From Flavobacteriales bacterium (lineage in GTDB: Bacteria > Bacteroidota > Bacteroidia > Flavobacteriales_F > PHOS-HE28), in NCBI GenBank assembly GCA_018057455.1, contig JAGPDT010000012.1, positions 1 to 64,000 of the forward strand: a stretch of 64,000 nucleotides of DNA, read 5' to 3'. The notes under the pieces were generated by a model. That model was not told where the DNA came from. It saw nothing but the letters and a program-made list of their open reading frames with translations, and did no database searches. Of this stretch, positions 38,249 through 48,727 are shown one piece after another (within the stretch, counting starts at the first letter, position 1; each line of letters starts with the position of its first letter). The translations under genes and the position numbers were made by a program.

Positions 38249-39550
38249 TCATCCCTTGCGGCTGTTCAGGAAGCGCAGGCCCAGCAACCGGTCGCAGCGT
38301 AGCTGATAGTCCTTCACATACACCAGCACAACGTATTCGTTTTCCGTTTGGTAATGCGATCCTTCCAGCAGGGTGAGGTCCGGTACCGTGCCACCGTTGG
38401 GCAGAAAGGCGTACACATGGTCGAAGTAGCCTTGCTTAATGGGGATCCTTGCGGTGTATGCCTTCCGGGCTTCGTTCCATGCACAGCGGAATTCCTTCTT
38501 GCACTGGAAGTCGCTGATGGCACCGTACACATACACCTCGCCGCCCACCTGCTCCTGGGAGCGCGGCAGGGTGAAATCCACGTACACGTAGTCGGCGCTC
38601 AAGGGATCGTCCGGCACAAGGTCGTTCTTCACCAGGTATTTGCCGTTGATGTCGGGCAGGTCCAGGTATACTTTGAATTCGCGCTTCTCGTCCGGCAGCA
38701 GCACGGCTTCGGTCAGTCCTTCCGGGGAAGTGAGGTAGTGGCTCACCCGCAGGGTGGTGTACCGCAGGTTCTTCAGGTCCACGCCCCGCCATTCATTGCC
38801 CCCGTGGAACAATCCTTCTTTGGGGTGGTCATAGACCAGTTCGGCATCGCGGATGAACTTGGGGCGGAGACCGGTGCGCGCGTCGTCCCATCGGTTGTTC
38901 TGCAGGACCACCACTTGGAGGTCGCTGAATGGATCGGGCACAGGGATGCCCGGATAGCGCAACGTAAGGTCCAATTGCTGGTCCATGTCCCGCCGTTCCA
39001 CGTTGCGCGTGGGCACCATGGCTGCACTGACCTGTACCCGGTCCTCAAAGACCAGAAAGCGGCGGGTGAGGACCAGGTCGTCCTGGTCGGTGCCCCGGAA
39101 CACCTTCAGCAGGTAGTTGCCGGCCACGGAGGGCCGCATCATCTCGTTGGGGAACTCCAGTTCGTAGGCCAGGAACGGCTGGGTCGTGTTGAAGCTCTGG
39201 CGGGGGGAGGGCACAAAATCCGTGGGCACCCCGTGGATGTATTGGCTGGGCGAAAGATCGCTGGGCTGCCAAAGGGCAGTGCAATGCACCACGGTGAAGC
39301 TGAGGTTCTCCGCATCTACGTTGAAGTCGTCGAAGCGCAGCACCAAGGACTCCTCGCCGCCCAACCTGAGGATGGCCGGCGAAAGCTCAAAGCCCCGCTT
39401 GAAGAACTGCACGGTATGGACAGTCGGGCTGTACACGTGGTCCTCGTAGCGCAGCTCCTGCGCGGAGTAGTAGTCATGGGTATTGCTGGCCACTGGTTGT
39501 ACGGCACTGCACGAGGCGAGCAATGCAAGGATCAATGTTCCTGTCTTCAT
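38249..39550 (-). CDS. DUF5103 protein, type IX secretion system plug-like
   Basis: About 433 residues. The start at 39550 gives MKTGTLILALLASC, a lipobox LASC. Several beta-sandwich domains follow, with LRFDDFNVDAENLSFTVVHC, QQLDLTLRYPGIPVPDP and a late VYVYGAISDFQCKKEFRCAW. The last stretch YFDHVYAFLPNGGTVPD and YVVLVYVKDYQLRCDRLLG are typical of the Bacteroidota DUF5103 family, whose member in Flavobacterium plugs the periplasmic side of the T9SS translocon SprA. A T9SS role is therefore likely. The antisense strand has a long open frame, a shadow. Confidence 0.85.
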   Translation of the reverse strand: MKTGTLILALLASCSAVQPVASNTHDYYSAQELRYEDHVYSPTVHTVQFFKRGFELSPAILRLGGEESLVLRFDDFNVDAENLSFTVVHCTALWQPSDLSPSQYIHGVPTDFVPSPRQSFNTTQPFLAYELEFPNEMMRPSVAGNYLLKVFRGTDQDDLVLTRRFLVFEDRVQVSAAMVPTRNVERRDMDQQLDLTLRYPGIPVPDPFSDLQVVVLQNNRWDDARTGLRPKFIRDAELVYDHPKEGLFHGGNEWRGVDLKNLRYTTLRVSHYLTSPEGLTEAVLLPDEKREFKVYLDLPDINGKYLVKNDLVPDDPLSADYVYVDFTLPRSQEQVGGEVYVYGAISDFQCKKEFRCAWNEARKAYTARIPIKQGYFDHVYAFLPNGGTVPDLTLLEGSHYQTENEYVVLVYVKDYQLRCDRLLGLRFLNSRKG

Positions 39551-39697
39551 CGGGTCAATCGCCGGGGTCATTCCCCCGCAAAGGAAACCATCGCCACGCC
39601 GACCGCGGAACGATTCGGTGCGTCACAGTCCATCCCGTGTCATTCCGGCCGTAACTTCGATCAGCGTTCGCACCACACCAAACCGATCAACACGCCG

Positions 39698-40714
39698 ATG
39701 AAAACACGCTTTACCCCAGCAGCATGGATCATGGCCGTTGGCCTCCTGTATGCAGCCCGGCCGGCCCATGCACAGATCGCCGTTACCGATAGCCTGTCCA
39801 CCGCCGACATCGCCCAGTTGTTGGAGGGCCTGAACCTGTCCATATCGAATGTGGTGGTGAACTGCCCGGGAGCCGCCATGGGCCAGTTCTCGGGCAGCTC
39901 CGAGCTGGACATGACCGATGGACTGGTGCTCACCACCGGATCTGCTGATGCCTTGGCCGGGCCGGCGTCCAACTTTGCCAATGCCATGCTTGGCACGGCC
40001 GGTGACGTGGACTTGACCGCGGCCGCCGGTTCGTTCACCAATGATGCCTGCGTGCTGGAGTTTGACTGCGTACCCTACGGAGATACGCTGCTTTTCAACT
40101 TCTCCTTCGGAAGTGAGGAATACCCTGAATTCGTGGGTTCCGTCTTCAACGACATCTTCGCCATCTACCTCAGCGGGCCAGGATTCCCCTTCCCGGTGAA
40201 CGCCGCGCAACTGCCCGATGGGACACCGGTGGCGATCAACAACGTGAACGACTTGAGCAACAGTGCGTACTATTTCGACAATGAAGCGGCCATGGGGCAG
40301 TATGTGGCCTATGACGGATTCACCGTGAACCTCACCGCCTTTGCCGAAGTGCAGCCGAATGAGACCTACCACTTCAAGGTGGCCATCGCCGATGCAGGCG
40401 ACATGGTCTATGACAGCGGGGTGTTTCTGGAGGCCTTCAGCTTCCGTAGCGTGGTGCTGACCACGGCCGTGGCCGAGCAGGGCACAACCGGCATGACCGT
40501 GTACCAACAGGGCGGGTTGATCCGGGTCGCGTTGCCTGTGGTGGAACCCGGCGCGGACCTGTTCCTGTACGATGCTTTGGGCAGGCAGTTGAAGCATGTT
40601 GCCGTATCGGACCAATTGGTGGAATTCAATGGTGCCGATCTGCCTGCTGGTGCATACACAGTGGTGCTGCACAATGAGCAAGGCATTGCTCCGGTGCGGT
40701 TCGTCAGAGAGTGA
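39698..40714 (+). CDS. Secreted choice-of-anchor-L protein with T9SS tail
   Basis: About 338 residues. The start at 39698 gives MKTRFTPAAWIMAVGLLYAARPAHA, a signal peptide. The choice-of-anchor-L domain covers about 25-270: SISNVVVNCPGAAMGQFSG, GLVLTTGSADALAGP, FSFGSEEYPEFVGSVFNDIF. The C-terminal 75 residues (FLYDALGRQLKHV, LPAGAYTVVLHNE) form a type IX sorting domain. It is likely a cell-surface or secreted adhesin. A TAACTTCG box lies 39-46 bases upstream. Palindromes and tRNA-Ser follow. Confidence 0.88.
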   Translation: MKTRFTPAAWIMAVGLLYAARPAHAQIAVTDSLSTADIAQLLEGLNLSISNVVVNCPGAAMGQFSGSSELDMTDGLVLTTGSADALAGPASNFANAMLGTAGDVDLTAAAGSFTNDACVLEFDCVPYGDTLLFNFSFGSEEYPEFVGSVFNDIFAIYLSGPGFPFPVNAAQLPDGTPVAINNVNDLSNSAYYFDNEAAMGQYVAYDGFTVNLTAFAEVQPNETYHFKVAIADAGDMVYDSGVFLEAFSFRSVVLTTAVAEQGTTGMTVYQQGGLIRVALPVVEPGADLFLYDALGRQLKHVAVSDQLVEFNGADLPAGAYTVVLHNEQGIAPVRFVRE

Positions 40715-40836: not shown

Positions 40837-40859
40837 GCCCGCTGCGCGGGCAACGTTGG

Positions 40860-40946
40860 CGGAGAGGGAGGGATTCGAACCCCCGGTACCCTTGCGGGCA
40901 CTTCTGTTTTCGAGACAGACCCGATCGACCACTCCGGCACCTCTCC
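40860..40946 (-). tRNA. tRNA-Ser (anticodon CGA)
   Basis: The acceptor stem pairs GGAGAGG (40946-40940) with CCTCTCC (40867-40861), and the discriminator at 40860 is G. The anticodon loop is CTCGAAA (anticodon CGA). A long variable arm (GTGCCCGCAAGGGTAC) and the T-loop GGTTCGAATCC are present. 3' CCA is not encoded. It reads UCG serine codons. Confidence 0.96.
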
Positions 40947-41114: not shown

Positions 41115-41687
41115 ATGAGACCCGCGCTGCTCAATTGGACCTTGGCCTGCATGGCCTTGCCTTGGTGCAGCTTCGGGTTTTCCCAAGAACGAACCCTGCT
41201 GCGGGTGGTGCGCTCCGAGGTGACCTTCGTGAGCGACGCGCCATTGGAACGGATCACCGCTTCCAACATGAAGTGCAGCGGATTGCTCGATCCGGCAGCG
41301 CGCACCTTTGCCGTGCAAGTGCCCGTCGCCGAGTTCCAAGGGTTCAATTCACCCCTGCAGCGCGAGCATTTCAATGAGAACTATATGGAGTCGCGCACAT
41401 GGCCCAAGGCCAACTTTGCCGGGCGCATCATCGATGAAATGGACTTCAGTACCCCCGGCACCCGGTCGGTGAGGGCCAAAGGCACCCTCATGATCCATGG
41501 CTTGGAGAAGGAACGCATCATCCCTTGTACCGTGGTGGTCTCTGCTGAAGGAGCGCGCGTTACGGCACGGTTCGAAGTGGCCTTGGATGATCATGCCATC
41601 CGGATCCCACGGATCGTGCACCAGAAGATCGCTCCTTTGATCCAGGTGGAACTGGACCTTTTATTCAGGCCGGCACCGGGCACATGA
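41115..41687 (+). CDS. YceI-family periplasmic protein (first copy)
   Basis: About 190 residues. The start at 41115 (MRPALLNWTLACMALPW) gives a signal peptide. The YceI lipocalin-like fold is shown by SEVTFVSDAPLERITASNM, EFQGFNSPLQREHFNENYME, WPKANFAGRI and GTLMIHGLEKERIIPCTVVV. YceI proteins bind isoprenoids or related lipids in the periplasm. The HFNENYMES motif is shared with the second copy at 47215. Its stop overlaps the sensor kinase start (ATGA). Confidence 0.9.
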   Translation: MRPALLNWTLACMALPWCSFGFSQERTLLRVVRSEVTFVSDAPLERITASNMKCSGLLDPAARTFAVQVPVAEFQGFNSPLQREHFNENYMESRTWPKANFAGRIIDEMDFSTPGTRSVRAKGTLMIHGLEKERIIPCTVVVSAEGARVTARFEVALDDHAIRIPRIVHQKIAPLIQVELDLLFRPAPGT

Positions 41688-44500
41688 GGCGCTTATGGCC
41701 CGCCCTGCTGCTGGTGCTGTTGGTCCCGCCTTGTGCTGCCCAGTATCCCCATACACAGGTTCAGGAGATCCGTGTGGGGCAACGCCGAACGGCCATCACC
41801 CTGTTGGCCCAGGACAAGTACGGGCTGATCTGGGCCGCCAGCGATCTCGGTGTACTGCGGTTGGACGGGGACCGGGTGGATGTGATGGCCTCCTCCGGCG
41901 GCGCCACCATCATGGCCATGGCGCAACGGGACAACGGCATGGCCGTGGCCCTGTCCTCCGGTGTGGTACTGCACTGTGCCGGAACCCGGGTGGACACGAT
42001 CTATTCCGATCGCGTTTTGGTGCGGTGCCCCGTAAGAGCCATGGTGGTGGCCACCAACGGTACGGTGCACCTGGGCACTTATGGTGCGGGGATCCTGTCC
42101 ATCGAACGCCAACGCAGCCACGTGCTTTCAACACCGCAAGGCCTGCCGGACAGCCACGTCAACGACCTGTGCCTGCTGCAGAACGGCAGTCTGGTGGCCG
42201 CAACGGACCAAGGTCTGGCTTTGGTGAGGGATCGCCAAGTACGGGAGGTGTTCGGGCAGCGGCAAGCAGCGCCGGACAACTTGGTCTTGTCCGTGGCGGA
42301 GGCCCCTGGTGGTGGTGTGTGGGCGGGCACGGACAATGGCGGTGCCTTCCTTTGGACACCCGGCCGCAAAGACATCACCGATGCATGGTCCGCTGAAGCC
42401 TGCGGGGGAGCGGTGCGCAGCATCGCCTGCCAAGGTGCGTTGCTGTGGACCGCCGGGTCCAGGCCTGGCGCCACCTACTTTGACCGCAGCCTGAGCCGAA
42501 ATGGATTCGCCCCTTCCGAAAAGCTGCTGCCCGGTGCCCTGCCTGCAATGGACCTGTTGTGCGACCCGGAAGGCGCTTTATGGTGGTGTGATGGAACCGG
42601 GCGGCTCTACCGCGCCGATCCGGCCGTCTTCTTCATTCCGGAATTGGCCGGAATGGACATCAGTGGGATCAATGCGCTACGGGTAACCAACGACCGTAGC
42701 TGGTTTGCCACGGTGGAGGGGTTGTTCTCCTGCGCATTGGGGGAATTGGCCAGCCCGCTGTTGGAGCATGCAACGGTACCGGTGGACCCTCAAACGCCCA
42801 TTGTTTCATTGGACCTCGCACCGGACGGAACGATCTGGGCCGCCACTTTCGGCAATGGCCTCTTCGCCGTGCGGCCCAACGGGCACGTCGATCATTTCAG
42901 CAGCGGGAATGGCGGCATCGACCCCAACGTGCTTTGCGTTCGCACCCGCGGCGAGGAGGTGTGGCTGGCCACCTTGTCAGGCATGTGCAGGCTGGTGGAC
43001 GGTGAGGCCACGTGTTTCACACCCTCGGGATCCGGTTTCATGTACATGCTGTTGCCCTTGGAAGACGGAACCGTGCTGGGGGCAACTGACGGGAACGGGG
43101 TGGTCCGGTTCGATCGGGACCGCTTGGAACCCGTGGACCGTTTCGGGCCGCGTACCTACTATGCCTTGTCGCGCGATGCGGCGGGCAGCACCTGGGCGGT
43201 GGGTCCCGAAAGTGGCTTGTGCCGCTTGAAGCAGGACACCTTGATCTGCACGGATGGCACCATGCCGCAATTCCAAGGAGACCTTTTCGCCGTGGCCTGC
43301 ACGGGCCGCCACGTGCTGGTGTTCCGCGATGGTGCCGCCATGGCTTACGATACTTCCACCGGCCTATGGAGCGATATCACCGCCCAAGCTGGTTTATCCG
43401 GGCTGCAGGCAGAGTTGAACGCTGCGGGCACCGGCCCGGATGGATCAATCTGGTTGGCCTGCGACAAGGGGTTGGTCCGCCTGCGCGCACCGGCCACATG
43501 GTTCTCCCCGCACCTGAACACAGTGATCACCGAGGTGGTGGTGGACCATGTGCACCTGGCGGCCGAACAAAACTGGGAAACCCCCCATGACCGCAACGCC
43601 GTCACCTTCAGATTTGCCGCGCCCCACTATGCGGACCCCGGGGCGGTGCGCTTTGAGTTGCGCTTGTTGGGCCTTAGCGACAAGATCATACGCACCCGCG
43701 AACGCGAAGCCAGTTACCCCGCGCTGCCCCCCGGAACATACACCTTTGAAGTGCGGGCGTTCGTTGGCGAGGAGCCGCGCGGGGCTGAATGGGCGCGGCA
43801 ACACTTCGTGATCGTACCACCGTGGTGGCGGCTCTGGTGGGTGGCACCCGCCGCCGTATTGGCCTTGGTATTGGTCATCGCGCTCTGGTTCCGTGCGCGT
43901 GAACGGCGCCTGCGCTACCGGCAAAAGCTCGAACAGGACCAGGTCCGCTTTCAACTGGAAGCATTGCGCAGCCAAGTGGATCCCCATTTCCTCTTCAACA
44001 GCTTCAATACACTGGTGGAACTGATCGAATCCCAACCGTCCAAAGCCGTGGAGCAAGTGGAAGAGCTGAGCACCTTCTTCCGCAACATCCTTCATGTGCG
44101 GGACAAGCCCACCATTTCCCTGGGTGAGGAACTCAGCCTGGTTTCCACCTATTTCCGCTTGGAACAGCGCCGCTTTGGCCAGGCCATTGCCATGGAGACC
44201 GCCATCGGTGCTGAGGACCGCCGCTTGCACGTGGTGCCGTTGACCCTTCAATTGCTGGTGGAGAACGCCATCAAACACAATGTGGCCGATATGGAGTCGC
44301 CCTTACTGGTCAATGTGCGGGTGGAGGATGGGCTGCTGGTGGTGTGCAACCGCATGCGACCAAGGTCTTCCCCCGTGCGCTCCACCGGCTTCGGGCTGGA
44401 CAGCATCCGCAAACGTTATGCGGCCCTGAGTCCGATCCCGGTATCAGCGCGAGCGGTGGATGGCCGTTTCATCGTTCAGATACCTTTGATCCAGCCATGA
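41684..44500 (+). CDS. Sensor histidine kinase of the LytS type with beta-propeller sensor
   Basis: 938 residues. A signal peptide leads into a two-component propeller (repeats such as LIWAASDLGVLRLDGDRV, GTIWAATFGNGLFAV). A Y_Y_Y-type sandwich (APHYADPGAVRFELRLLGL) and one span (LWWVAPAAVLALVLVIALWF) follow. The kinase is of the LytS/His_kinase class: QLEALRSQVDPHFLFNSFNT with H768, and VPLTLQLLVENAIKHNV as N-box. It should sense periplasmic ligands and phosphorylate the downstream LytTR regulator. Overlaps by ATGA on both sides. Confidence 0.93.
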   Translation: MRRLWPALLLVLLVPPCAAQYPHTQVQEIRVGQRRTAITLLAQDKYGLIWAASDLGVLRLDGDRVDVMASSGGATIMAMAQRDNGMAVALSSGVVLHCAGTRVDTIYSDRVLVRCPVRAMVVATNGTVHLGTYGAGILSIERQRSHVLSTPQGLPDSHVNDLCLLQNGSLVAATDQGLALVRDRQVREVFGQRQAAPDNLVLSVAEAPGGGVWAGTDNGGAFLWTPGRKDITDAWSAEACGGAVRSIACQGALLWTAGSRPGATYFDRSLSRNGFAPSEKLLPGALPAMDLLCDPEGALWWCDGTGRLYRADPAVFFIPELAGMDISGINALRVTNDRSWFATVEGLFSCALGELASPLLEHATVPVDPQTPIVSLDLAPDGTIWAATFGNGLFAVRPNGHVDHFSSGNGGIDPNVLCVRTRGEEVWLATLSGMCRLVDGEATCFTPSGSGFMYMLLPLEDGTVLGATDGNGVVRFDRDRLEPVDRFGPRTYYALSRDAAGSTWAVGPESGLCRLKQDTLICTDGTMPQFQGDLFAVACTGRHVLVFRDGAAMAYDTSTGLWSDITAQAGLSGLQAELNAAGTGPDGSIWLACDKGLVRLRAPATWFSPHLNTVITEVVVDHVHLAAEQNWETPHDRNAVTFRFAAPHYADPGAVRFELRLLGLSDKIIRTREREASYPALPPGTYTFEVRAFVGEEPRGAEWARQHFVIVPPWWRLWWVAPAAVLALVLVIALWFRARERRLRYRQKLEQDQVRFQLEALRSQVDPHFLFNSFNTLVELIESQPSKAVEQVEELSTFFRNILHVRDKPTISLGEELSLVSTYFRLEQRRFGQAIAMETAIGAEDRRLHVVPLTLQLLVENAIKHNVADMESPLLVNVRVEDGLLVVCNRMRPRSSPVRSTGFGLDSIRKRYAALSPIPVSARAVDGRFIVQIPLIQP

Positions 44501-45258
44501 ACCTGCGCGTTGCGATCATTGAGGACGAACCCGCCGCCGTGAGGCGCATGCACAAATTGCTCGTGGAGATCGACCCCGGCATGGAGGTGGTGGCAGACCT
44601 GCCCTCGGTGGAACAGGCCGTGGCCTGGTTCAGGCAGCATGCACCACCCGACCTGGCCTTTTTCGATGTGCGCCTCGCCGACGGCAGCAGCTTCGAGGTG
44701 TTCAACGCCGTGGAAGTGGCTTGCCCGGTGATCTTTGTGACCGCCTTCGACGAGTTTGCGCTGAAGGCTTTCCGTGTGAATGCCTTGGACTACTTGTTGA
44801 AGCCCGTGAAGCGCGAGGAACTGGCCGTGGCCTTGCAGCGGGTGCGGGAACTGCGCATCGTTCGTGGGCTTGGTGGATTGGCGAGGCATGAGGACATTGC
44901 CGCCGAACGCCCTTCGGTTCCGGTCAAACGCTTCCTGATCCGCATTGGCGACCGGATCCGTGTGGTGGAACCCAAGGACATCGCCTACTTCCATTCACGC
45001 CAGAAGGACACCTACCTGCGCACATTGGAAGGCAAGGACCTGCCGCTTGACGAAAGCCTGGACCGCCTGGAGCATCAATTGCCTGCGGACCGGTTCTTTC
45101 GCCTGAACCGGCAGTTGATCGTGAATTTCAGGAGCATCCTGGAGCTGTTGGCGTACAGCAAGAGCAGGGTGAAGGTGGTACTGCAGCCACCGTTTGATGA
45201 GGATGCCCTTGTCAGTAGTGAGCGATCCGCGGAGTTCAAACGCTGGCTGGCAGGGTAG
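44497..45258 (+). CDS. LytTR-family response regulator
   Basis: 253 residues. The receiver has D10/E11 and phospho-acceptor D57 (AFFDVRLADG), then VTAFDEFALKAFRVNALDYLLKPV. The DNA-binding LytTR domain begins RFLIRIGDRIRVVEPKDIAY and has the typical FFRLNRQLIVNF core. The start at 44497 overlaps the kinase stop (ATGA), so the pair is coupled. Likely targets are nearby cytochrome, YceI and barrel genes, an inference. Confidence 0.95.
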   Translation: MNLRVAIIEDEPAAVRRMHKLLVEIDPGMEVVADLPSVEQAVAWFRQHAPPDLAFFDVRLADGSSFEVFNAVEVACPVIFVTAFDEFALKAFRVNALDYLLKPVKREELAVALQRVRELRIVRGLGGLARHEDIAAERPSVPVKRFLIRIGDRIRVVEPKDIAYFHSRQKDTYLRTLEGKDLPLDESLDRLEHQLPADRFFRLNRQLIVNFRSILELLAYSKSRVKVVLQPPFDEDALVSSERSAEFKRWLAG

Positions 45259-45384
45259 TTGCCGGTTCGTCGGCCATTCTTCCCACTTCGTCGGGTCTGG
45301 TTCCCAGCCGTGGGCCGTACACCATTGCTTTGGGTGCTGAAGCAGGCAATTGAAGCAGGCATCGGATCACACTCCCCGCAGCAG

Positions 45385-45579
45385 ATGGACACAACGATCG
45401 TGCTCGACCCGAAGGACCTCGACCTGTTGCTGCGTGCAGAACCCGGCCTGCTCTTGGGGCAGATCATGCGCCTGAACAACGAACCCCGCTACCGCAACCG
45501 GTTGGATGCCATCCAGCTGGCGGCCTGGATCAAAGAGGTCAAACAGGGCAAGCGCAATGCCGCGGGCCGCAAACGCTGA
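45385..45579 (+). CDS. Small helical protein, unknown function
   Basis: 64 residues from MDTTIVLDPKDLDLLLRAEP. It is helical and basic at the end (KEVKQGKRNAAGRKR). A longer frame from 45259 exists, but its N-terminal part is not protein-like. No family is recognised. It lies between the LytTR regulator and the first cytochrome-like gene. Confidence 0.5.
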   Translation: MDTTIVLDPKDLDLLLRAEPGLLLGQIMRLNNEPRYRNRLDAIQLAAWIKEVKQGKRNAAGRKR

Positions 45580-45639
45580 TCGGTGCAAGCAACTACAGCC
45601 CGCGGAACCGGGTCTTTCTCCACTACAGCCGGACTGAAC

Positions 45640-46386
45640 ATGTCGATACCTCCTGCCTCTTCCTTGATCCACCTGCTCCTGGGGGGCCTGCGAGGTGCCA
45701 CCGCCATGGGCATGGTCATCTTCTGCCTTGCTTCCTGCAAGCATGAACCGGTGGTTGCCCCGGATGGCGGTTTGGAAGGCCAAGGCCCAGGCCCAGGGCC
45801 GTTGCCGATCATGGAATGCGATCCGGACAGCGTGTACTTTGAACAACAGATCCTGCCCTTGCTGATCTCCAACTGTGCCGTTTCCGGATGCCATGACCAG
45901 GCCACCAATGACAACGACGGCATCCAGCTGACCAGCTACAGCACGCTCATGGCCAGTGGAACCATACAGGACGGTGACCTGTGGGAGGCGATCAACGAAG
46001 ACGACCCGGACAAGCTCATGCCCCGGCCTCCGCAGGCCCCGCTTTCGGCCGACCAGATCACGCTCATCGGCCAATGGATCCAGCAGGGTTTTCAGGACAA
46101 TGCCTGCGAAAACTCGTGCGACACCCTGAACGTCACCTATTCCGGCGTGATCCAGCCCTTGGTGGACGGCTACTGCACGGGGTGCCATGGCGGCAGTTCA
46201 CCCGAGGGCGGTTTGGATTACACCACCTGGGATGACCTGCACGCAGTGGCGGTTGATGGCCGGTTGGCCGGTTCCATCCAGCACCAGAACCCGTTCACGC
46301 CCATGCCCCCCACGGGACCCATGCTGCCCGATTGCCAGATCGACCAGATCATGGCCTGGATCGCCCAGGGCGCCCCCAACAACTGA
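45640..46386 (+). CDS. Lipoprotein with CX4CH and CXXCH haem motifs
   Basis: About 248 residues. The start at 45640 gives a lipoprotein signal with lipobox LASC. Domain one has NCAVSGCHD (CX4CH), GIQLTSYSTLMASG and KLMPRPPQ, then ITLIGQWIQQG. Domain two has YCTGCHGGSSPEGGLDYT (CXXCH), then MPPTGPMLP and IDQIMAWIAQGAPNN. Each has the Met/Pro-Pro and C-terminal helix of the PSCyt1-like cytochrome fold, so two covalently bound haems are expected. The stop overlaps the next start (TGATG). Confidence 0.85.
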   Translation: MSIPPASSLIHLLLGGLRGATAMGMVIFCLASCKHEPVVAPDGGLEGQGPGPGPLPIMECDPDSVYFEQQILPLLISNCAVSGCHDQATNDNDGIQLTSYSTLMASGTIQDGDLWEAINEDDPDKLMPRPPQAPLSADQITLIGQWIQQGFQDNACENSCDTLNVTYSGVIQPLVDGYCTGCHGGSSPEGGLDYTTWDDLHAVAVDGRLAGSIQHQNPFTPMPPTGPMLPDCQIDQIMAWIAQGAPNN

Positions 46387-46769
46387 TGCCGGCCATGCGC
46401 AGCAAGAACCTTTTGATCGCAGCGGCGCTCGGGGCAGGCCTGGTGGCATCCAATGGCTGCTACTATGATGTGGAGAGCGACCTCTACCCCAACAATTTCT
46501 GCGATACCGTTTCGGTCACCTTTTCCGGTACGGTACAGCCTCTCCTGCAAAGCAATTGCGCCATACTGGGCTGCCATGTGCCGGGTGGGACCGGCACGGG
46601 GGATTTCACCACCTATGCCGGATTCAATGCCCAAGTGGTGAACGGCGCCGTGCTGAACGCCATCCGGCATGAAGGAACCGTGCAACCCATGCCACCAAGT
46701 GGGAAGTTGCCGGATTGCCAGATCCGCCAAATTGAGCTCTGGGTGAACGCCGGGGCGTTGAACAATTGA
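46386..46769 (+). CDS. Single-domain CX4CH cytochrome-like lipoprotein
   Basis: 127 residues from 46386, or 124 from the ATG at 46395. The signal is LIAAALGAGLVASNGC with a lipobox-like SNGC. The domain has NCAILGCHVPGGTGTGD (CX4CH), VQPMPPSGKLP and QIRQIELWVNAGALNN, homologous to the second domain of the gene before it. It would carry one haem. Coupled by overlap to the preceding gene. Confidence 0.8.
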   Translation: MPAMRSKNLLIAAALGAGLVASNGCYYDVESDLYPNNFCDTVSVTFSGTVQPLLQSNCAILGCHVPGGTGTGDFTTYAGFNAQVVNGAVLNAIRHEGTVQPMPPSGKLPDCQIRQIELWVNAGALNN

Positions 46770-46772
46770 ACC

Positions 46773-47198
46773 ATGAAACGCAACCACCTCCTTCTGCTCC
46801 TGGGCTTGGCCTTTGCCGCTGTGGCCTATTACGGTTACCGCCAGTACAATGCCGTGCCGGCCACCGCTGCAGGCCGTACCGCCGATTTCAACGTACAGGC
46901 ACCGGCGCTCTTCACTGAATTCCAACAGGATGAAATGGCCGCCGGCACGCGCTACAATGACAAGCTGGTGGCCGTGGAGGGCACCGTGCGCAGCATGTCC
47001 ACCGCGGAGGAGGGCCTGGTCAATGTGGTCCTGGAAACAGGCGATCCCCTGGGGGGCGTGGTATGTGAACTTGCACCCGGCACAGTGCCGGGCCTTGTCG
47101 CCGGCGATCACACCCGTATCCAAGGCTATTGCGCCGGGTTCAATTTGGATGTTCTGCTCCAGCGCTGCACGGTAATTGAACTGAAACCACAACACTGA
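46773..47198 (+). CDS. Membrane-anchored OB-fold (tRNA_anti-like) protein
   Basis: 141 residues. One N-terminal anchor (HLLLLLGLAFAAVAYYGY) precedes an OB fold: LFTEFQQDEMAAGTRYNDKL, VAVEGTVRSMSTAEEG, NVVLETGDPLGGVVCEL and TRIQGYCAGFNLDVLLQRC. This resembles the tRNA_anti-like (PF12869) periplasmic OB domain, despite its name not tRNA-binding. It lies three bases after the cytochrome-like gene. Role unknown. Confidence 0.75.
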   Translation: MKRNHLLLLLGLAFAAVAYYGYRQYNAVPATAAGRTADFNVQAPALFTEFQQDEMAAGTRYNDKLVAVEGTVRSMSTAEEGLVNVVLETGDPLGGVVCELAPGTVPGLVAGDHTRIQGYCAGFNLDVLLQRCTVIELKPQH

Positions 47199-47214
47199 AA
47201 CACCACCGGTCCAA

Positions 47215-47766
47215 ATGCCCCGTTCCATCCTCCTCGCCGGCCTCGGCCTGTTGCCCGCCTTGCTGGCGGCCCAAACGCATTTCGCCACCCGCAGTGGTGA
47301 GGTCTCCTTCTTCTCCAGTACGCCCATGGAAGACATCACCGCAGTGAACCGCAAGGTCACCAGTGTCTTTGATCCTTCCACCGGTGCCGTGGAGTTCGCG
47401 GCCTTGATCAAGGCGTTCGAGTTCGAGAAGGCACTGATGCAGGAACACTTCAATGAGAACTACATGGAGAGCGCCACCTTCCCCAAGGCCACCTTCAAGG
47501 GCATGCTGAAGGCCGCTGCCGGCGATGACCTCGCCACCGTGGGCACCCATATCGTTACCGTGGCCGGTGACCTCACCATCCATGGCGTCACGCGGCCTGT
47601 TTCCGTGCAGGGCACGATTGTCACCTCGGCGGCGGGCACCATGAAGGCCACCAGTGCATTCGAGGTGAAACCCGAAGACCATGGGATCAAGGTCCCCGGC
47701 GTTGTGCGGGACAAGATCGCCAAGTCCGTGCAAGTGAAGGTCCGGCTGGAGTATGCCAAACTGTAA
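47215..47766 (+). CDS. YceI-family periplasmic protein (second copy)
   Basis: 183 residues with a signal peptide ending LAAQ. YceI hallmarks are GEVSFFSSTPMEDITAVN, QEHFNENYMESATFPKATFK and GDLTIHGVTRPVSVQG. It is a paralogue of the protein at 41115 (shared HFNENYMES). Presumed isoprenoid/lipid binding in the periplasm. It follows the OB-fold gene by 16 bases. Confidence 0.93.
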   Translation: MPRSILLAGLGLLPALLAAQTHFATRSGEVSFFSSTPMEDITAVNRKVTSVFDPSTGAVEFAALIKAFEFEKALMQEHFNENYMESATFPKATFKGMLKAAAGDDLATVGTHIVTVAGDLTIHGVTRPVSVQGTIVTSAAGTMKATSAFEVKPEDHGIKVPGVVRDKIAKSVQVKVRLEYAKL

Positions 47767-47791
47767 GCCCCCAAACACCAGTCCAGCACCC

Positions 47792-48727
47792 ATGCTCCGG
47801 TCCAGGTCCCTCTTCCTTTCCTTGGTGTTCGCGTGTGCCATGCCGGCGGTGCATGCGCAGGAGGACCTGTTGCAATTGTTGGGCGGCGACAGCACGGAGG
47901 TGGTTCTCACTTCGGCCAGTTTTAAATCCACCCGGGTGATCAATGGGCACAGTATGGAAAACACGGCCCATGGGGTGTTGGATTTCCGCATCGGACACCG
48001 TTTCGGGTTCCTCAGCACCGGTGTGCAGGAGCTCTTCGGCTTGGACCAGGCCACGATCCGCTTGGGCTTCGACTACGGCCTCACCGACCGCTTGATGATC
48101 GGGCTGGGCCGGAGCTCATACGAGAAGACCCTGGACGGCTTCGCCAAGTACAAGGTGCTGCGGCAATGCGATGAAGGATGCACCATGCCCGTCTCGCTGG
48201 CTTTTGTGGCGGCCACCTCGGCCACCACGCTCCCTGCCGAACAGGTGCCTTGGTACTTCAACGGTATCGATGACTTCTACACACATCGCCTCTCCTACAG
48301 CTTCCAAGCGGTCATCGGCCGCAAGTTCACCGAAGGGCTCACCCTGCAATTGACGCCCGGCGTGGTGCACCGCAACCTGGTGGAAACCCCTGAAGACCGC
48401 AATGACCTGATGAACCTGGGGATCGCCGGTCGGGCAAAGCTCAGTAAACGCGTGGCCATCAATGCCGAGTATTTTTATGTGCTGCCCGACCAAGGCCCAC
48501 GCGGCGGGTTCCACAATTCACTGGCCATTGGCTTCGACATTGAGACCGGCGGCCACGTGTTCCAGCTGCACTTCACCAACAGCACGGGCATGTATGAACG
48601 TGGCTACATCACGGAAACCGTGGGGGACTTCGCCCAAGGGGACATCCACTTCGGCTTCAATATTTCACGTGTGTTCACCCTGCACGACCCGAAGGCCAAG
48701 GCGTGGCGCAAACAGCAAGGCAGCTAA
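47792..48727 (+). CDS. DUF5777-family outer membrane beta-barrel protein
   Basis: About 311 residues. The start at 47792 gives a signal peptide ending VHAQ. Alternating strands follow: ATIRLGFDYGLTDRLMIGLG, RLSYSFQAVIGRKFTEGLTL, VAINAEYFYVLPD and a final FGFNISRVFTL. This pattern and the length fit the Bacteroidota DUF5777 barrel family. It may be the outer membrane partner of the cytochrome/YceI proteins upstream. Last gene of the cluster. Confidence 0.85.
   Translation: MLRSRSLFLSLVFACAMPAVHAQEDLLQLLGGDSTEVVLTSASFKSTRVINGHSMENTAHGVLDFRIGHRFGFLSTGVQELFGLDQATIRLGFDYGLTDRLMIGLGRSSYEKTLDGFAKYKVLRQCDEGCTMPVSLAFVAATSATTLPAEQVPWYFNGIDDFYTHRLSYSFQAVIGRKFTEGLTLQLTPGVVHRNLVETPEDRNDLMNLGIAGRAKLSKRVAINAEYFYVLPDQGPRGGFHNSLAIGFDIETGGHVFQLHFTNSTGMYERGYITETVGDFAQGDIHFGFNISRVFTLHDPKAKAWRKQQGS

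Follow-up and report, generated by a model that had tools for sequence, protein, structure and literature searches.

Solved proteins of the YceI lipocalin family often contain isoprenoids, for example ubiquinone-8, and members of the family are tied to redox partners in the BcnA-LcoA and Cbp2D systems (PMC9113575; PMC8981238). Regulators of the LytTR type bind pairs of repeats of 9-11 nt with a spacing of 11-13 nt, mostly 12 (PMC4847170; PMC6193735). Proteins of both kinds are encoded side by side in a gene cluster within the stretch of DNA analysed here (64,000 nucleotides from a Flavobacteriales genome, referred to as the window). The nine co-oriented genes described in a previous reading of the DNA, hereafter the sequence-only reading, were all recovered on the + strand, provided that a small ORF of 64 aa (45385-45579) is included; we count it as the ninth gene because it is kept in all 16 loci of the genus with full context. 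Dozens of independent contigs show the same order of genes, which is more than chance would give.

The first gene, yceI_A (41115-41687), encodes a periplasmic YceI lipocalin (Pfam PF04264, E 8.8e-8), and its 3' end overlaps by 4 bp the start of the gene for a LytS-type sensor histidine kinase (41684-44500; His_kinase PF06580, E 2.5e-20, with Reg_prop PF07494 and Y_Y_Y PF07495). The latter is followed by a gene for a response regulator with a receiver and a LytTR domain (44497-45258; Response_reg PF00072 and LytTR PF04397). Beyond the small ORF lie cytA (45640-46386; PSCyt1 PF07635, E 1.4e-10) and cytB (46395-46769), both encoding c-type cytochrome lipoproteins, a gene for a membrane-anchored OB-fold protein (46773-47198; PF12869, E 1e-14), yceI_B (47215-47766; PF04264, E 5.8e-17), the YceI lipocalin of the structural operon, and a gene for a DUF5777 outer-membrane beta barrel of 311 aa (47792-48727; PF19089, E 4.2e-91). 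Several pairs among the nine genes overlap or almost touch. All domain calls in the cluster passed the Pfam cut-offs except those for cytB and the small ORF, and the propeller-type kinase, the LytTR regulator, the OB-fold protein and the DUF5777 barrel that had been recognised by eye are thereby borne out. Just upstream of the cluster is a gene for a secreted protein (38348-40714) whose C-terminal part, as read by eye, contains a choice-of-anchor-like domain and what looks like a T9SS tail; a tRNA-Ser gene (CGA; 40857-40946, - strand) lies between it and yceI_A.

To determine which of these genes belong together, we compared the loci in which DUF5777 is encoded. A set of 80 related loci, with flanks of up to 10 kb, was gathered via the DUF5777 alignment. 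Among these and the window (81 loci), a set that is biased because the 80 were chosen as best matches to the window's own barrel, YceI was found in 74, cytochromes in 72 and the OB-fold protein gene in 65. In a second sample of 40 DUF5777 loci, spread across the Bacteroidota, 36 have YceI as a neighbour, with the strand shared in 34, and 32 have a c-type cytochrome, with the strand shared in 30. Conservation of the neighbourhood had been proposed as a check in the sequence-only reading. A Rieske protein is encoded in two of the phylum-wide loci devoid of a cytochrome (L136 and L137), and in Emticicia and Dyadobacter the gene immediately upstream of the barrel encodes a Rieske protein instead of the cytochrome. 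Owing to these adjacency counts and to the Rieske replacement, we regard a redox carrier, YceI and DUF5777 as the core of a conserved module. The whole gene order is kept in 16/16 loci with full context in the window's genus, where DUF5777 is present in 39 of 45 genomes; across the sampled Bacteroidota it is present in 154 of 395. DUF5777 was found in 0/17 genomes lacking a haem-copper oxidase, and all DUF5777 genomes of the phylum sample have the oxidase, but this link to aerobic respiration via COX1 is too confounded by phylogeny to be given weight.

Some loci contain additional genes. A choice_anch_V type protein with a CXXCH-type motif and a T9SS sorting tail is encoded between the OB gene and yceI_B in three loci (L094:7066-7908, L097:8422-9276 and L105:8445-9287), and a T9SS-sorted plastocyanin/pseudoazurin-like (cupredoxin-like) protein is encoded 52 bp upstream of yceI_A in another (L102:2882-3529). 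Upstream of the operon in L042 (1-4845) is a gene for a long protein with a cupredoxin-like stretch, recognised by eye only. Five loci from congeners (L178-L182) carry a second, divergent DUF5777 gene with a short cytochrome gene directly after it and no YceI nearby.

The two cytochromes had been described as CX4CH cytochrome-like lipoproteins. Both indeed have a CX4CH motif, but cytA is dihaem, with CAVSGCH (CX4CH) and CTGCH (CXXCH), while cytB is monohaem (CAILGCH). The Met ligands of cytA lie within MP motifs; among 44 sequences, conservation is 95-100% for these two Met-Pro motifs, for the two haem motifs and for the lipid Cys. For cytB, which was recognised through homology to cytA since it scores below the Pfam cut-off, the Cys/Cys/His of the haem motif is 100% and the Met 97% conserved (78 sequences); the axial Met-Pro is conserved at 97-100% across the two sets. 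Most cytB orthologues have CXXCH and others CX4CH at the same position, and the CX4CH of cytB is therefore a true haem-c site and an ordinary variant. The CXnCH motifs and the axial Met, together with the above-cut-off PF07635 match of cytA, mark both proteins as c-type cytochromes, and the genome also encodes cytochrome c assembly genes. When the cytA sequence profile was compared with the PDB, the best match was FoxE (E 5e-6), and cytochrome c6 was also matched (E 1.5e-4). Foldseek gave no significant match for the predicted structure of cytA (mean pLDDT 86; best E 0.8), the top matches nonetheless being cytochromes.

The remaining structural proteins are less familiar. The small protein between the regulator and cytA has a conserved core of about 50 residues (LxxxDLxxLLxxxPxxLLGxIxxLNxxPxYxNxLNAIxL) and gave a profile match in each of the 16 full-context genus loci (L158-L168, L172, L173 and L175-L177; E down to 1e-30), with no match in Pfam or NCBIfam; it is an undescribed family and, going by the predicted promoter (see below), would be the first gene of the structural operon. 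The AlphaFold2 model of the barrel (pLDDT 90.8, pTM 0.83) has about 12 strands. Its nearest solved folds are NanC, FapF and OmpG, with likeness only in general shape, and a sequence search with DUF5777 against the PDB found nothing; nor did we find any mention of DUF5777 in the literature searched. The invariant residues in the DUF5777 alignment are mostly polar or charged, and this pattern does not suggest a hydrophobic channel.

With regard to the YceI proteins, both score above the PF04264 cut-off of 23.7 bits (33.1 bits for yceI_A and 62.9 bits for yceI_B) and are thus members of the family. Both also carry the HFNENYMES motif, just as the sequence-only reading had noticed, where the three other YceI proteins of the genome have HL(K/R/M)SxxFF. 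That the motif is common to the two groups suggests that sensor and effector may have the same ligand. In the YceI tree, YceI_A forms its own clade with support 99, made up of 22 kinase-linked rows plus one, and the topology with YceI_A as a single clade is not rejected (p-AU 0.58). YceI_A also accompanies the kinase in genomes where the kinase gene is separate from the structural operon. We therefore assign YceI_A to the sensor and YceI_B to the effector module.

Of the 80 nearest loci, 19 have the complete triad of yceI_A, kinase and regulator next to the structural genes, and two further triads are interrupted by contig ends (L043 and L075). Cultured species with the triad include Taibaiella koreensis (L102) and Segetibacter koreensis (L083). 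The sequence-only reading had staked its proposal on the kinase pair and the cytochrome genes occurring together in other genomes; they do so in these 19 loci and in 16/16 full-context genus loci. On the other hand, the kinase pair is absent from all 40 phylum-wide DUF5777 loci, so that the module cannot depend on regulation by the kinase. That the pair is optional, an addition to the core module, had been overlooked, along with the fact that one of the YceI proteins goes with the sensor. In L061 and L090, the genes upstream of the structural ones encode a response regulator together with a putative membrane kinase that is of a different type, so regulation may be in other hands in other lineages.

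Next we examined the promoter regions. The regions after the regulator stop codon share a direct repeat, approximately CCGNTTCRTC followed by CCSNTTCATC, with a 21-bp period. The Gibbs motif had an information of 16.9 compared to 12.2 ± 0.18 in shuffled sequences, and the self-match at period 21 was 7.17 compared to 5.98 ± 0.22; it should be underlined that the motif p values are approximate, because the shuffles preserved single-base content but not dinucleotides. Both the length of the repeats (9-11 nt) and the distance between them (11-13 nt) are those of LytTR target sites. In the window, the predicted LytTR binding site is located at 45262-45294 on the + strand (CCGGTTCGTC..CCACTTCGTC) and has a leave-one-out score of 21.5, the best in the window. 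A search upstream of the structural genes had been suggested previously and yielded this site, whereas the suggested counterpart upstream of 41115 has none in the window (p 0.73). The -7 element of Bacteroidota has the consensus TAnnTTTG. A predicted -7 promoter box, TTGCTTTG, lies at 45325-45332 on the + strand, 63 nt from the start of the LytTR site, and 20 of 28 sites have a -7-like box, by a criterion of 5 of 6 positions, at an offset of 63 or 64 nt from their start. In the 16 genus loci, at least two of which (L162 and L173) are on the same contigs as motif-training loci, the repeat occurs 3-11 nt after the regulator stop codon in every case (p<0.01 in 15), and a -7 box, here by a criterion of 4 of 6, is present at 63/64 nt in 14, compared to 3.3% by chance.

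The motif follows the kinase. In a leave-one-out scan upstream of the structural genes (p<0.01), it was detected in 17 of 23 kinase-linked loci versus 5 of 48 others; after reclassification of the loci, the figures were 21/27 with kinase and 1/44 without. In L065 and L075 the kinase is encoded downstream of the barrel, yet the site is still found upstream of the structural genes. Among the five motif-positive loci devoid of a linked kinase, L037 ends just after a regulator gene. For the other four (L042, L048, L054 and L070) we searched for YceI_A in the rest of the genome, and likewise in eight motif-negative genomes. The triad was present elsewhere in three of the four motif-positive genomes (L048, L054 and L070; none was found for L042) versus 0/8 motif-negative ones (Fisher p 0.018), these genomes being mostly MAGs that may be incomplete. 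The same motif also appears upstream of the separate triads. Because the triad in trans follows the motif, the regulator belongs to the structural promoter and YceI_A to the sensor. The claim that the cluster is controlled by its own sensor is thus strongly supported, as the LytTR-type promoter tracks the kinase even when the latter is elsewhere in the genome, and regulation of the operon by the kinase pair is well supported as a prediction from sequence. With a strict motif pattern, the window's genome gave the operon site and one likely chance match; with a looser pattern, matches in 20 other genomes were at about the level of reversed controls, and no wider regulon was seen.

The reading we favour is an envelope redox module built around a lipophilic, quinone-like ligand and induced by a signal through a lipocalin-coupled sensor. 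We favour it because of the isoprenoid ligands of YceI proteins, their redox partners elsewhere and the unusual motif common to both YceI groups, and we assign it a probability of about 50%. YceI_B would carry a lipophilic, probably isoprenoid molecule. Electrons would be exchanged with this cargo, or with whatever YceI_B serves, by two lipid-anchored His/Met cytochromes, the dihaem cytA and the monohaem cytB. The 12-strand barrel would be the outer-membrane partner of the cytochromes, either as a narrow channel or as a catalyst. In the periplasm, YceI_A may bind this ligand or one like it and hand it over to the kinase at its propeller domain; the kinase would then phosphorylate the LytTR regulator. 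Bound to the direct repeat at 45262-45294, the regulator would activate transcription from the promoter whose -7 box lies at 45325, and thereby the operon from the small protein through cytA, cytB, the OB gene and yceI_B to the barrel; here we infer activation rather than repression. The earlier suggestion that the set moves electrons or lipophilic molecules appears plausible in view of the haem sites with conserved Met, the Rieske replacement and the known YceI ligands; the identity of the ligand, the flow of electrons with its direction and the role of the barrel are inferred. A more specific version, in which YceI_A, the propeller kinase and the LytTR regulator form a three-component sensor for a redox lipid, for example quinone, and switch on an outer-membrane redox module that comprises two cytochromes, the DUF5777 barrel and a second lipocalin sharing the distinctive motif, is put forward tentatively, the odds being somewhat against it.

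Two other readings are the main rivals: that the module detoxifies lipid radicals, or that it exchanges electrons with proteins at the cell surface. In the former, resembling BcnA-LcoA, YceI would collect lipid peroxyl radicals or oxidised quinone at the outer membrane, the cytochromes would re-reduce it and the sensor would report oxidised lipids. The YceI lipocalin BcnA has a cytochrome b561 as its partner, and peroxidation of membrane lipids is increased in mutants (PMC9113575). A comparable link between YceI and electron carriers is seen in both our 81-locus and 40-locus sets, and the absence of DUF5777 from the oxidase-less genomes points the same way, although confounded by phylogeny. 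High-potential His/Met cytochromes, however, are usually electron donors to oxidases rather than lipid-radical reductants. The cytochrome type would thus be unusual for this purpose, no cytochrome b561 was found by Pfam among the nine cluster proteins, and the barrel is left unexplained; we consider this explanation rather unlikely.

We judge it improbable that the cytochromes and the barrel instead pass electrons to or from T9SS-secreted redox proteins on the cell surface. The T9SS-sorted CXXCH proteins inside the operon of L094, L097 and L105, the cupredoxin-like neighbour in L102 and the match of the cytA profile to FoxE speak for such an exchange, but surface redox proteins occur in few loci and are absent from the window, neither cytochrome has more than two haems (cytA two, cytB one), and a barrel of about 12 strands, as modelled, would be too narrow to hold a cytochrome in the manner of Mtr. 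Still less probable is that a small redox-active molecule is taken up or exported through the barrel, with the cytochromes and YceI modifying or trapping it once inside. The nearest folds include the small diffusion channels NanC and OmpG, and a selective lumen is suggested by the large number of charged residues that are invariant; the fold matches are nevertheless weak (for NanC, a TM-score of 0.46 by query and 9% identity), and the set conserved across related loci includes no enzyme or inner-membrane transporter.

In the envelope redox module that we prefer, the parts are ordinary, and their arrangement is conserved and undescribed; a search of the literature on YceI with cytochromes in Bacteroidota found nothing on this cluster. 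DUF5777 thereby gains a conserved set of redox partners, to which a defined promoter and its regulator are added in one part of the Bacteroidota. The results also suggest that bacterial YceI lipocalins may act as sensor subunits of kinases, a role that would make the question of YceI ligand and function directly testable.

Compared with known systems, the cluster resembles BcnA-LcoA of Burkholderia cenocepacia in that a YceI lipocalin is genetically tied to an envelope haem electron carrier. That carrier is a b561 membrane protein, whereas c-type lipoproteins are found in the cluster, and descriptions of that system include neither a DUF5777 barrel nor an OB protein, nor a kinase of its own coupled to a lipocalin; as none of the nine proteins is a b561 encoded beside a YceI gene, we do not assign the cluster to this system. 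Cbp2D and Cbp2E of Cellvibrio japonicus also combine a YceI-like domain with c-type cytochrome domains, but they are secreted, fused to cellulose-binding modules and linked to cellulose degradation. YceI and the cytochromes of the cluster are separate envelope proteins with no CBM detected by Pfam, and membership in this group was likewise rejected. Porin-cytochrome conduits of the MtrCAB type share with the cluster an outer-membrane barrel encoded together with cytochromes. There, a large barrel surrounds a multihaem cytochrome, and we rejected a conduit of this type on the basis of barrel size (about 12 strands, 311 aa) and the one or two haem motifs of the lipoproteins. Finally, LytS/LytTR systems such as YpdA/YpdB have in common with the cluster a His_kinase protein, a LytTR regulator and two direct repeats about 12 bp apart; the cluster differs from them in having a periplasmic propeller sensor, an overlapping lipocalin gene and a cytochrome-barrel operon as its target.
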